DNA of 36,961 nt from a virus, in IMG/VR virus record IMGVR_UViG_3300010966_000076, positions 1 through 36,961 of that record; one strand, given 5' to 3'. Both the position numbers and the translations under genes were made by a program. Of this stretch, positions 1-36,961 are shown piece after piece (within the stretch, counting starts at the first letter, position 1; each line of letters opens with the position of its first letter). The notes under the pieces were generated by a model. That model was given only the letters and a program-made list of their open reading frames with translations, ran no database searches and was not told the origin of the DNA.

Positions 1-55
1 CGTTGAACTTGGCCCATGACGAGGCGACGGCATGGTGGGCTTCGTCGAAGACGAC
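1..55. repeat. Left terminal overlap with 36233-36287
   Basis: These 55 bases are identical to 36233-36287 inside the complete helicase gene, and the first mismatch falls at base 56. Together with the matching block at the other end, this looks like a shared k-mer where two haplotypes of a circular genome branch. It does not look like a physical terminal repeat. Confidence 0.85.
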
Positions 56-364
56 CAGCGCGGACGCCTTGTCCTCGGCGGAGATATGGTCGAAGTCGGC
101 GGAGAATACGGACAGGGCTTCGCCCCGGACGCCGAATCGGTCCATCGTGGCCTTCGCCTGGTCGATGAGTTCCTTGCGGTGGGCGACGAAGAAACACTTG
201 CGGTTCGTGCCGGTCTGCCAGCGACGCATGATCTCGGAAGCGATTACCGTCTTCCCGCTTCCTGTGCTGGCAACAATCAAAGGATGGACCCCTTTCGCAA
301 CGAAAGAAAGAGCAGCCATTACTGCGTCTTCCTGATACTTGCGAAGCTTGATGTTAGTATCCAC
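1..364 (-). CDS. SF2 DEAD/DEAH helicase, 5' part (haplotype A, cut by window edge)
   Basis: Partial gene running off the left edge, with about 121 codons visible. It encodes the first RecA-like domain of a superfamily 2 helicase, expected to unwind nucleic acid with ATP. The P-loop is ASTGSGKT, and the DEAH box lies in VVFDEAHH. The start is most likely GTG at 364, because the reading then lines up with residue 1 of the complete copy at 35100-36590 and overlaps the stop of the upstream HNH gene. Over bases 1-230 it is about 95% identical to that copy by hand count, but over 231-350 only about 67%. In that stretch it uses more A/T-ending codons. It is therefore an alternative allele of the same gene with a foreign-looking 5' end, rather than a second helicase. 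In a circular genome it would continue into the shared 3' part. Confidence 0.85.
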   Translation of the reverse strand, partial: MDTNIKLRKYQEDAVMAALSFVAKGVHPLIVASTGSGKTVIASEIMRRWQTGTNRKCFFVAHRKELIDQAKATMDRFGVRGEALSVFSADFDHISAEDKASALVVFDEAHHAVASSWAKFN

Positions 365-752
365 GGAGTTCCTTTCTGCGCTTGTTCATGTCGGCAAGGT
401 GAATTTTGATATGTTCAGACTGCTTCATGACCTGGAGATTGTCCATTTCGTTATTCTTGGAGTTTCCGTCGATATGATGAACGACTTCACCTTTACAAAG
501 CGGCCTTCCGATTTTCTGTTCAGCGATGACACGGTGCATATGCCGGCCATTCATCTTGATGTATTTATGCTTGGTGCCTGTGCCACGATACTTTTCGGCG
601 ATCACTTTGCCCGATTCGACAGAAGCTGCTTTTTGTTTGCAGGTAAATCCGCAATACTTTGTACGAGCCAGGCGATATGTCTCGACGACGTAAGTCTCAT
701 TGCACATTTGGCAGATGGCGTTGGAACGTTTCTTGGATTTGAATGTTTTCAT
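354..752 (-). CDS. HNH endonuclease, free-standing (homing-type candidate)
   Basis: A 132-residue protein expected to nick or cut DNA. The N-terminal half has four cysteines (C14, C17, C34, C38) in a C-x2-C...C-x3-C pattern that can hold a zinc. The C-terminal half has the HNH core: VVHHIDGNSKNNEMDNLQ at about 90-107, then SEHIKIH. ATG at 752 is chosen; a TTG six bases upstream is possible. It begins 9 bases after the stop of the upstream gene, and its TAA overlaps the GTG start of the helicase fragment. The gene is less G+C-rich than most of the genome. It is absent from the other haplotype of this locus, where an unrelated small gene takes its place. Gain by homing or co-conversion is inferred from the divergence pattern, not shown. 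Confidence 0.85.
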   Translation of the reverse strand: MKTFKSKKRSNAICQMCNETYVVETYRLARTKYCGFTCKQKAASVESGKVIAEKYRGTGTKHKYIKMNGRHMHRVIAEQKIGRPLCKGEVVHHIDGNSKNNEMDNLQVMKQSEHIKIHLADMNKRRKELRGY

Positions 753-761
753 AAGCAATTA

Positions 762-1166
762 TCAGTTTACCTGCTCCTGTCGGATTGCAACTGATTTTGC
801 GTATTTGTTGGCTTCTACGATGATATAGCGGGGACGCTTGTTACCGCAGCGGAAGACGAAGTAGTCGACATCGGGGTTGGCCTTGAGCATGGAATAGTAC
901 TCGGAAGCGGACATACGCTTGTCCAGCCAGTAGCGGCTACGCTCTCCGCCGTCGCAAGCGACTTCGGCACAGGTGTAGCTCGGGTACTTGCACAGCCAGA
1001 TCGTGTGCGTCCAGTTGTTTTCGATTTCCGGATTCCAAGAGACTTCGTGTTCAATGCAATCCTTGAGGGCTTCAAGGACGTACTGATTGTACTTCTTCTT
1101 GGACATTTTGGAGGTGTCGATTTCATCGCGCACGAACGAGATGAGTTGGTCTTCGGTGATTTTCAT
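762..1166 (-). CDS. Hypothetical protein, haplotype A specific
   Basis: A 134-residue protein of no recognised family, rich in charged and aromatic residues, with five cysteines scattered through it. It has no signal peptide or membrane segment. The start is ATG at 1166, directly after a 54-base leader that is identical to the leader of the 106-residue gene at 36592-36912. The two proteins are not similar after the first few residues, so the leader drives different first genes in the two haplotypes. It sits immediately upstream of the HNH gene and probably arrived with it. It could be a passenger, or a regulator or inhibitor of the endonuclease; nothing in the sequence decides this. Confidence 0.6.
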   Translation of the reverse strand: MKITEDQLISFVRDEIDTSKMSKKKYNQYVLEALKDCIEHEVSWNPEIENNWTHTIWLCKYPSYTCAEVACDGGERSRYWLDKRMSASEYYSMLKANPDVDYFVFRCGNKRPRYIIVEANKYAKSVAIRQEQVN

Positions 1167-1215
1167 GGGTATTATGTATTATGCGGGTGGCGTCTCCTGT
1201 TATTAACACTCCCGT
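1162..1215 (-). promoter_or_regulatory. Shared leader/promoter of the helicase operon
   Basis: This 54-base block is identical to 36908-36961 and ends at the start codon of different genes in the two copies. On the minus strand it contains the near-palindrome GTTAATAAC (1199-1207), also found at 6268-6276. A possible promoter is TTAATA, 17 bases, CATAAT, and an AACAGGAG stretch could be a ribosome site. It lies just after a terminator, so a new transcript starting here makes sense. Which element is the promoter is uncertain. Confidence 0.5.
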
Positions 1216-34523: not shown

Positions 34524-35110
34524 CGGTAGATATGGTAGATTTCAGAGGCTACGGCGCGGACGCCGGCGGGGTCAACCGCCAAGCGGGTGTGCAGTATCTG
34601 CATCGAGGCCATCATGTCAGCCAAGCTGCCCGCCTCCTCGTCGTTCGCCGGCCCGAAGCCTGGACGCTGAATCTCGACGGTCACGATCTGCACATCAAGG
34701 TGCTTGGCCAAAAACAGGTACTCGTTCAGGTATCGCCAGTCCGAGACCAAGGCCACGGGGCGAACATCCAGCGGCGAGTAATCCATGAACAGGGCGACCT
34801 GCGCGTTCAGATGCCGAGCGAAGATGTCCTTGTCCACCCCCCGGAGGGTACGGCCCAATTCGACCAGCAGCCCCCGATTCTTCACCTTGAAGTCCTCGGC
34901 ATGGAAGTCGACGACTCCCGCCTTGAAGACCCCCATCGCCCGAAGCACGTCGTTGGCCCGTTCCTTCAGCACATCGGCAAACTTGAAGACCTCGCAACGG
35001 TTGCCGTTTCCGTTGAAGTGTTCCATCAGACAAGCGGCGAAGGTATCCTTCCCCGCGCGAGCGACCCCGGTGATCATAAAGACCAGCGGCTTGTTATTCT
35101 TAGGCATCAT
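34520..35110 (-). CDS. Deoxynucleoside monophosphate kinase-like protein
   Basis: A 196-residue P-loop kinase expected to phosphorylate dNMPs for phage DNA synthesis. The P-loop is GVARAGKDT at 15-23, and the lid/nucleoside region includes VSDWRYLNE, the counterpart of the V-x-D-x-R-x-x-N-E motif of phage dNMP kinases. It overlaps the 3' end of the helicase gene by 11 bases. Substrate choice cannot be read from sequence. Confidence 0.75.
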   Translation of the reverse strand: MMPKNNKPLVFMITGVARAGKDTFAACLMEHFNGNGNRCEVFKFADVLKERANDVLRAMGVFKAGVVDFHAEDFKVKNRGLLVELGRTLRGVDKDIFARHLNAQVALFMDYSPLDVRPVALVSDWRYLNEYLFLAKHLDVQIVTVEIQRPGFGPANDEEAGSLADMMASMQILHTRLAVDPAGVRAVASEIYHIYR

Positions 35111-36590
35111 AGTTATCGAAAATGCGTCCGTAGATTCTTTGAAGCGGCGATTGCTTGGGCTTACCTTTGCTCTGCATACGCCAGTCAGAGGAGATGGCCT
35201 TCGAGGCCGAATCCTTGGTCAGACGCTCGGCACCGCGCACCCCGAATTGCTGGAGCTTGCGGACCTGCTTCACGGTGGCCAGATTAAGGGCTTCCCGTGC
35301 CTTCAGGCGGGCGATCATCCAGTCGGCTTGGTCAGCCGTCATCCCACGGGCGTGGACGCCGTGGCGGGCCAATTCCGTGGCTTGGTAACCAAACATCGAC
35401 GACTCGGAGGTCGGAGCCGGCAGGACGAACCCGAAAACCGCGCAGGCGACCGACAGGTCGACCAGCCCCAGTTCCTTGGCTTCCTTCGTCGACGACCGCT
35501 GCTCCTCGGCGGCGATACGGCGGAGCATCGACTCTTCCGCCTGGCGGTCGCACCCCTCGGCGGCGTCCAGCGGGTCATGCGACCCGTCAATCGGGGCGGA
35601 CTTGGCCTGCGGGTGAACCGTGAAGGCGTCCGCCGGCGTGAAGGAATTCTCCCCGCTGATCCACATGGGGTCGAGGATAAGGCAATCGGTCTTGCCGGGG
35701 GCCGTGCGGAGTCCTCGGCCAATCATCTGGCACCAGAGTGCGCGGGACTGGGTCGGACGCAGCAGGATGACGCAATCGGTGTCGGGGGCGTCGAACCCTT
35801 CGGTGAACAGGTTCACATTGCAGAGGACACGCAGTTCGCCGTTCTTGAACGCTTCGACCGTGCCGGCCCGGAACTTGCCCGTGCTGCCGTCGGCGTGGCC
35901 GGCCTCGATGCCGCGCTGGCGGAGCAAGGCGACCAGGCGGACGGAGGTGTCGACCTCGGGCAGGAAGCAGATGGCCTTCTTGCGGTCCCAGCGGTTCAGC
36001 TCGGTGACGATGCTGTCGGCGACCGCTTCGAGGGCGTCGTCGTAACCGCGCAGGCGAATGAGGCTCATCTCGACGGGCATCTTCTGGGCCATCGGACGGA
36101 CGAGGTGACCCTGCTCGATAAGGGTACGGATGGCAATCTCGTAGGCTGGCACGAAGCCCACGGTCTCAAGTTTCTGGCGGTCGAGGCGATCGGGCGTGGC
36201 GGTCACGGCGACCTTCGGGCCGGTGAACACGGCGTTGAACTTGGCCCATGACGAGGCGACGGCATGGTGGGCTTCGTCGAAGACGACGAGCGCGGACGCC
36301 TTGTCCTCGGCGGAGATATGATCGAAGTCGGCGGAGAAGACGCTTAGGGCTTCGCCCCGGACGCCGAACCTGTCCATCGTGGCCTTCGCCTGGTCGATGA
36401 GTTCCTTGCGGTGGGCCACGAAGAAACACTTGCGGTTCGTGCCGGTCTGCCAGCGGAGCATGATGCTGGAGGCAATCACCGTCTTGCCGGCACCCGTGGG
36501 GGCGATGACAAGCGGGTTGACGGCCTTCGCAATAAACGAAAGCGCGGCGGTGACGGCGGCTTCCTGATAGTCTCGGAGCTTCAGTTCCAT
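35100..36590 (-). CDS. SF2 DEAD/DEAH helicase (complete, haplotype B)
   Basis: A 496-residue helicase. The motifs are P-loop APTGAGKT (30-37), DEAH (105-108), TATPDR (130-135), and motif VI QMIGRGLRT (288-296). These belong to the superfamily 2 group related to RecG/UvsW-like unwinding enzymes. The C-terminal 200 residues are a separate helical part. It would remodel forks or recombination intermediates, in keeping with the resolvase and annealing genes. ATG 36590 lies one base from the upstream stop. It is the full version of the gene whose alternative 5' end is at 1-364. Confidence 0.9.
   Translation of the reverse strand: MELKLRDYQEAAVTAALSFIAKAVNPLVIAPTGAGKTVIASSIMLRWQTGTNRKCFFVAHRKELIDQAKATMDRFGVRGEALSVFSADFDHISAEDKASALVVFDEAHHAVASSWAKFNAVFTGPKVAVTATPDRLDRQKLETVGFVPAYEIAIRTLIEQGHLVRPMAQKMPVEMSLIRLRGYDDALEAVADSIVTELNRWDRKKAICFLPEVDTSVRLVALLRQRGIEAGHADGSTGKFRAGTVEAFKNGELRVLCNVNLFTEGFDAPDTDCVILLRPTQSRALWCQMIGRGLRTAPGKTDCLILDPMWISGENSFTPADAFTVHPQAKSAPIDGSHDPLDAAEGCDRQAEESMLRRIAAEEQRSSTKEAKELGLVDLSVACAVFGFVLPAPTSESSMFGYQATELARHGVHARGMTADQADWMIARLKAREALNLATVKQVRKLQQFGVRGAERLTKDSASKAISSDWRMQSKGKPKQSPLQRIYGRIFDNYDA
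36233..36287. repeat. Internal copy of the left terminal 55 bases
   Basis: Identical to 1-55. It marks the branch point between the two haplotypes inside the helicase gene. Confidence 0.85.
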
Positions 36591-36591
36591 G

Positions 36592-36912
36592 TTAGCGGAT
36601 GACTTCGACCTTGCCGCCGAGGAGGGTGGTCGGACCTTTGCCCGTGATGGCGTCGGCAAGCGACTTGGCGAACGCCTGGTGGGCGTCGTGCAGTTCGACG
36701 GCCTTGGCGACGGCGGAGTCCTTGTCCACGCAGCGGGCGTTGAAGCCACGGGTGCGGGAGAACTTCGGCGAGTCCTGACGGCTGACGAGCCATTCGGCGG
36801 AGTCGTCCTTTTTGGCGATCAGGCCGATGACTTTCTCGGCCTTGCGGACGAGGAAGAACTGGACGCCGATGTAGCGGCCGGTGGAGGTTTCGTTGACGGT
36901 GATGTTGTTCAT
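36592..36912 (-). CDS. Hypothetical protein, haplotype B specific
   Basis: A 106-residue protein beginning MNNITVNETSTGRYIGVQ, beta-rich at first and helical later (AVAKAVELHDAHQAFAKSLA). No family is recognised. It takes the place of the 134-residue gene plus HNH gene found in the other haplotype, behind the same 54-base leader. It ends one base before the helicase start, so the two are one operon. Confidence 0.6.
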   Translation of the reverse strand: MNNITVNETSTGRYIGVQFFLVRKAEKVIGLIAKKDDSAEWLVSRQDSPKFSRTRGFNARCVDKDSAVAKAVELHDAHQAFAKSLADAITGKGPTTLLGGKVEVIR

Positions 36913-36961
36913 GGGTATTATGTATTATGCGGGTGGCGTCTCCTGTTATTAACACTCCCGT
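36908..36961 (-). repeat. Right terminal overlap with 1162-1215 (shared leader)
   Basis: Identical over 54 bases to 1162-1215, and the next base inward differs. It contains the GTTATTAAC palindrome and the start of the gene at 36912. With the left overlap it closes the genome into a circle. Confidence 0.85.

Follow-up and report, generated by a model that had tools for sequence, protein, structure and literature searches.

Does an HNH endonuclease gene owe its place beside a phage helicase gene to homing, with the neighbouring sequence copied in from a diverged relative? This question is raised by a locus at which the 5' end of the helicase diverges abruptly next to the HNH gene. The window, i.e. 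the whole stretch of DNA that was analysed, is an entire IMG/VR virus record of 36,961 bases. Its PHROG matches (terminase, portal, head protease, major head protein, primase and a RecT-like protein) identify it as a tailed phage. Every gene at the locus lies on the minus strand (Table 1).

Two alleles of one locus

The only long direct repeats of the window connect its two ends. Outside both repeats the copies diverge at once, with position 56 already different. Words of about 55 nt shared between the start and the end of the contig are what is expected when an assembler with k of about 55 passes through a bubble while unrolling a circle. The two ends are therefore, as read from these repeats, alternative alleles of a single locus. 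The other copy of the helicase mentioned in the preliminary description was indeed found, at 36233-36961 and with no HNH gene, but it represents the alternative allele and not a second locus. The left allele comprises 56-1161 and the right allele 36288-36907 (the coordinates just given include the shared ends). Both would have been present together in the sampled population and assembled into one contig. The phage genome would then measure about 36.2 kb, to which the record adds the duplicated allele, and, given that the exact terminal words correspond to a circular genome unrolled through the bubble, the record, although classified as linear in IMG/VR, is probably complete. Six related contigs of 33.6-37.1 kb contain one helicase each, and an HNH_3 gene in none.

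Table 1. Features of the two alleles in the window
Feature	Position	Strand	Remarks
Bubble entry	1..55		exact repeat of 36233-36287
Helicase 5' part, HNH-bearing allele (ResIII/DEAD, SF2)	2..364	-	PF04851, 1.7e-19
Divergent, putatively imported tract of helicase 5' end	224..349	-	mismatch 0.33 vs right allele
P-loop (GSGKT) codons, HNH-bearing allele, candidate homing site	248..262	-	recoded, ACAGGAAGCGGGAAGACG vs ACGGGTGCCGGCAAGACG
HNH endonuclease gene, 132 aa	354..752	-	ATG at 752; ORF open to TTG 758
Divergent A/T-rich 3' end of 134-aa gene, other footprint flank	762..820	-
134-aa gene, left allele	762..1166	-	commonest gene upstream of helicase in relatives
Bubble exit	1162..1215		exact repeat of 36908-36961 (last 54 nt)
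Full helicase gene, 496 aa, HNH-less allele, intact target	35100..36590	-
Uninterrupted P-loop codons (GAGKT), HNH-less allele	36480..36494	-	alignment offset 36232
106-aa gene, slot occupant in HNH-less allele	36592..36912	-	86% aa homologue in L025 only

The HNH protein is composed of an N-terminal zinc-ribbon-like part (CxxC...CxxxC) followed by an HNH_3 domain in which the HH...N...H residues are intact. The domain (PF13392) scored 46.5 bits in Pfam, against a curated cut-off of 24.8 (E = 2.8e-12), and a PHROG HNH match was obtained at 2.6e-16. The alignment with the best phage matches revealed that H94, H95, N103 and H116, among other invariant residues, are kept. A search for a homologue of solved structure gave no PDB sequence match at E ≤ 1. 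The helicase of the left allele starts at a GTG at 364, overlapping the HNH stop codon, and is preceded by an AAGGA located inside the HNH gene. A group I or group II intron was discarded, as no Rfam match was obtained in the window or in 13 related loci and the helicase of the window is not split.

Edges of the divergent island and the HNH-less relatives

The two alleles are about 96% identical in the helicase body and about 67% identical in the 5' tract. Mismatches occur at a rate of 0.33 between the helicase start and position 224 and of 0.04 in the body, in good agreement with the near-identity followed by a drop to about 67% beside the HNH gene that had been described earlier. The change point was placed at 224 (2-lnL interval 219-233, lnL gain 26) and was matched by none of 2000 permutations. 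Since the P-loop codons occupy 248-262, this edge falls just past the P-loop. Compared with the right allele, the tract displayed a pN of 0.19 and a pS of 0.71, and the helicase body values of 0.017 and 0.16, respectively. The differences in the tract are mostly synonymous, which suggests a functional but distant helicase as the source, and not decay.

The G+C content was 50.8% for the tract, 44.9% for the HNH gene, 63.9% for the helicase body and 58.2% for the genome. When the 134-aa gene was compared with HNH-less loci, about 345 nt were found to be native and the last 60 nt or so divergent, with 43% G+C. The A/T-rich style previously ascribed to the tract, the HNH gene and the 134-aa gene is therefore shared by the first two, but the 134-aa gene as a whole does not have it, and the island spans about 224-820. 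With the helicase tract and the 3' end of the 134-aa gene both divergent, the footprint consists of two flanks enclosing the HNH gene. The arrival of the complete 134-aa gene together with the HNH gene was ruled out, because its HNH-less homologues are 80-82% identical and have a similar G+C content (54%).

A scan of viral contigs for relatives of the helicase provided 34 loci, 21 of which could be aligned in the helicase 5' end. The HNH gene was detected in none of the 34 and, with the two alleles of the window in one contig, its presence is polymorphic. All 21 aligned HNH-less relatives carry a 5' end of the right-allele type, with 65-100% identity to the right allele per 40-nt bin (most of them 80-100% in the first bin), and none shares the divergent 5' end. 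In contrast, the identity of the HNH-bearing allele to each relative was 48-72% in the first 119 nt and mostly 72-100% in the sequence after that. The P-loop DNA is almost invariant in the 21 relatives, ACGGGTGCCGGCAAGAC, and the HNH-bearing allele is the only one that diverges there, being recoded to ACAGGAAGCGGGAAGAC. The alignment of related helicase loci that the preliminary description had proposed was thus in line with its reading, as the target is intact in 21 of 21 HNH-less relatives and recoded in the HNH-bearing allele.

The slot upstream of the helicase is occupied by the 134-aa gene in 16 of the 34 loci and by the 106-aa gene in one (L025). In six HNH-less loci the 134-aa gene stands directly before the helicase, with 80-82% amino acid identity and the junction TAACATGGAACTC. 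The 134-aa gene being the commoner one in HNH-less relatives and the slot being variable, the exchange of the 106-aa gene for the 134-aa gene is not necessarily due to homing. The alleles do differ in this slot, as expected if the 106-aa gene had been replaced, but this difference is better attributed to the variability of the slot than to the HNH insertion.

Several searches were directed at the donor. HNH patterns searched in viral contigs gave nothing, the ten closest matches to the helicase tract reached only 64-75% amino acid identity and in none of them was an HNH gene found, and no phage record matched the DNA of 200-900.

A codon difference was also observed at the P-loop. The intact P-loops of ResIII-type, HNH-associated helicases (window 257-268, L110 and L111) read Ser-Thr-Gly (AGC ACN GGN), and the equivalent positions in the HNH-less relatives of the window read Pro-Thr-Gly (CCG ACG GGT). 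This split may be a coincidence, and L094 and L124 keep Pro.

The HNH clade at helicase P-loops in other phages

The alignment of the HNH protein of the window with its best phage matches defined a clade of 80 viral loci. Adjacency was scored when an SF2 helicase started within -60 to +450 nt of the end of the HNH gene. By this rule the clade lies directly 5' of an SF2 helicase in 69 of 78 viral loci and in 31 of 62 bacterial and archaeal genome loci, and a control HNH set in 1 of 76. Some of the adjoining helicases are of the SNF2 type, often preceded by a VRR-NUC gene, and the others are of the ResIII type, which suggests that the target is something common to SF2 helicases.

Pairs of HNH-bearing loci revealed where the similarity ends. 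The pairs L119/L127 and L081/L123 are 94-100% identical over about 490 nt before the P-loop lysine codon, a block that includes the HNH gene and the helicase start; past the P-loop, identity falls to 73% for the first 30 nt and to 50-73% for the second 30. The block shared by L119/L137 and by L127/L137 is shorter upstream, and the P-loop is again an edge or near one. Across HNH-bearing pairs, high identity (94-100%) falls to 50-77% at the P-loop. A putatively co-converted flank with a sharp edge near the target, found at 224 in the window, is thereby recurrent.

Among cultured phages, the helicases of the Corynebacterium phages StAB (HNH-bearing) and Stiles (HNH-less) are 90-100% identical, with 78% in the 60-nt bin of the P-loop. 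The P-loop reads GLGMGKT in StAB, SamW and Dina and GMGLGKT in Stiles, in a gene otherwise 95-98% identical (L036, L290, L291 and L292). The target is thus intact without the HNH gene and altered with it both in the window and in StAB/Stiles. SamW and Dina, which share the P-loop of StAB and carry no HNH gene, are exceptions to this rule; homing would need HNH loss or the spread of a resistant allele in order to account for them. L110-L114 are arranged differently: the HNH gene is preceded by a 5' piece of a helicase gene that stops exactly at the P-loop (GGTGGTGGCAAA), and is followed by a complete helicase that has a 5' end of its own. We conclude from these comparisons that the clade probably targets the P-loop codons of SF2 helicases, and one HNH clade is repeatedly placed at the helicase ATP-binding loop in unrelated phages.

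Many HNH-bearing relatives outside the window have an insertion of 1-17 nt in the P-loop, the commonest forms being GG[TTAG]C AAR and GG[TTGA]C AAR. Interrupted loci include L061, L073, L081, L084, L093, L097, L103, L119, L127, L130, L133, L137 and L139. The ratio of interrupted to intact P-loops, assigned by an automatic rule to loci that are partly related and hence not independent counts, was 42/19 for HNH-bearing viral loci and 22/9 for HNH-bearing genome loci; for SNF2 loci not selected for HNH it was 8/68 without and 2/1 with the HNH gene. Examples are the Paenibacillus phage Pd_22F (GGCTTAGGTTAGGTAAAACA), the Ruminococcus phage NatCom_23091 (GGCTTGGGTTGACAAAACT) and the ResIII-type L061 (GGTTAAATGGAAAGACG), whose HNH ranked second among the matches of the scan, at 39% over 132 residues. 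Most of the distinct interrupted sequences have a stop codon immediately after the last intact codon, which is for Gly or Leu, and many have Gly or Leu once more at the codon preceding the resumed frame; this tally overstates codon matching because the best-fitting pair of take-off and landing codons was taken for each sequence. The helicase 3' of the interruption is open for about 370-545 codons where the contig allows, with a pN/pS of 0.04-0.36, i.e. under purifying selection. The open frame and these ratios indicate that the interrupted genes are not dead. Neither allele of the window has an interruption in its P-loop, and a MobA/byp-like arrangement was not found there.

With the stop placed directly after a P-loop Gly or Leu codon, a functional helicase would need ribosomes hopping to a like codon. 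The interruptions look like ribosomal bypass of the T4 gene 60 type and are candidates for very short bypass elements. The main difficulty for this reading is the imperfect codon match of the common 4-nt class, for which AGC/AGT or GAC would be the landing codon. An in-frame programmed frameshift repairing the interruptions was considered less likely, since the 4-nt class would gain a residue inside GxGKT. Eight SNF2 helicases with no HNH gene detected nearby (L142, L156, L162, L180, L181, L182, L183 and L197) have their N-terminal part interrupted by short stop-bearing insertions in or just before the P-loop, and are possibly remnants of HNH loss.

Homing, its alternatives and known systems

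The allelic state, the footprint with its edges, the conservation and recoding of the target, the adjacency of the clade and the recurrent P-loop breakpoints are best accounted for by free-standing, intronless homing with co-conversion, targeted to the P-loop codons of the adjacent SF2 helicase, and we regard this reading as highly probable. Homing of a free-standing endonuclease with repair from a diverged relative had been suggested earlier, and it is supported by the 21 relatives, by the edge at 224 and by the breakpoints in other phages. The HNH enzyme would cut the HNH-less helicase allele, presumably at or near the P-loop codons. The break would then be repaired from a putative HNH-bearing relative, and in this direction the HNH gene would be copied together with its flanks, namely the donor helicase from its start up to and including the P-loop on one side, and about 60 nt of the 3' end of the upstream gene on the other. 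The recoded donor P-loop keeps the GKT residues but differs in the DNA that encodes them, which is expected to make the new allele resistant to the enzyme it carries.

Several observations count against homing: the donor searches found no source for the tract or the HNH gene, the upstream slot (106 vs 134 aa) also varies without an HNH gene, SamW and Dina have the StAB P-loop but no HNH gene, and 19 of the 61 classified HNH-bearing viral loci keep an uninterrupted P-loop. Alternatively, the helicase 5' end, the HNH gene and the upstream gene may have been swapped together by the ordinary homologous or modular recombination of mosaic phages, with the HNH gene as a passenger, a reading favoured by the slot variability among HNH-less relatives. 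However, no such swap of the helicase 5' end occurs among the 21 aligned HNH-less relatives, the breakpoint lies at the P-loop both here and in unrelated HNH-bearing pairs, and helicase adjacency is specific to this HNH clade, which makes passive exchange unlikely.

The strong, clade-specific adjacency (69/78) and the overlap of the HNH gene with the helicase start would also be explained if the HNH protein were a functional partner of the helicase in a nuclease-helicase module. This is considered very unlikely, as none of the 34 helicase relatives has the HNH gene and most SNF2 loci lack it too, the partners belong to unrelated helicase families, and a P-loop that is recoded, interrupted or split beside the HNH gene is not predicted by a partnership. 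Least probable of all, and scarcely credible, is an assembly error in which two phages were joined into a chimeric left allele, so that the sharp divergence is artefactual. The contig ends do match shared words of about 55 nt, i.e. the graph was traversed through a bubble, but the helicase breakpoint at 224 lies away from the k-mer ends of the bubble (1-55 and 1162-1215), it disrupts neither the reading frame nor the gene order nor the HNH-helicase overlap, and the same structure is present in unrelated contigs and in the cultured StAB.

Marker exclusion and co-conversion around free-standing endonucleases have been well described for SegF, SegG and MobE of T-even phages (PMC2988022). The window resembles these systems in that the endonuclease gene adjoins the conserved gene that contains its putative target, the flanks are apparently co-converted, and the endonuclease gene is sporadically present, with the target retained by endonuclease-less alleles. 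In contrast to them, the target would be the P-loop coding DNA of SF2 helicases, the protein is small, with a zinc ribbon and HNH_3, and genes of this clade precede helicases of at least two unrelated families. The case is therefore concluded to be one of free-standing HNH homing that appears novel in its target, the helicase P-loop codons. The open-licence PMC literature that was searched contained no description of HNH genes homing into helicase P-loops or of such interruptions, which is a weak negative. For an uncultured phage, the two alleles would represent the recipient and the product of one natural homing event, whose target can be located to within tens of bases.

T4 gene 60, which has the HNH gene mobA in its vicinity, is read across a 50-nt gap from a Gly take-off codon followed by a stop to a landing codon that also specifies Gly (PMC3014915). 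As in the case of MobA and gene 60 (PMC3014915, PMC5009743), where the HNH gene adjoins the split gene of an ATP-using enzyme, the relatives outside the window show interruptions of the form Gly codon-stop-landing codon, comparable to the take-off GGA and stop of gene 60. Unlike gene 60, the allele of the window is uninterrupted, the gap in the relatives is about 1-17 nt and not 50, and bypass is a prediction. According to a 2010 review, programmed ribosomal bypass is apparently unique to T4 gene 60 (PMC3014915). The P-loop interruptions would make it testable in tens of independent genes and, if the reading is true, would extend the T4 gene 60 case to a whole family of natural, very short bypass elements linked to homing genes. 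The chances are evenly balanced, in our judgement, for the broader proposal that this widespread phage HNH clade homes into SF2 P-loop codons with three kinds of self-protection: recoding, a second helicase start, or a 1-17 nt stop insertion with ribosomes hopping to a like codon.

Mobile ORFs of fungal mitochondria, such as those in atp6 of Allomyces and Glomus, among others, carry a foreign gene terminus (PMC3630166). The window is similar in that the endonuclease gene would have brought a replacement end of the host gene, making a hybrid. It differs in that the 5' end is concerned, in phages, with an HNH protein instead of the fungal endonuclease. Like the fungal genes, L110-L114 retain the displaced native end upstream of the HNH gene; in the window none was found. 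The closest cultured counterpart compared is gp49-gp50 of StAB, in which the HNH core is 64.5% identical and the HNH gene likewise overlaps an SF2 helicase start, with the P-loop patch recoded relative to Stiles as it is in the window. The StAB helicase is of the SNF2 type and lies behind a VRR-NUC gene, whereas that of the window is of the ResIII type.
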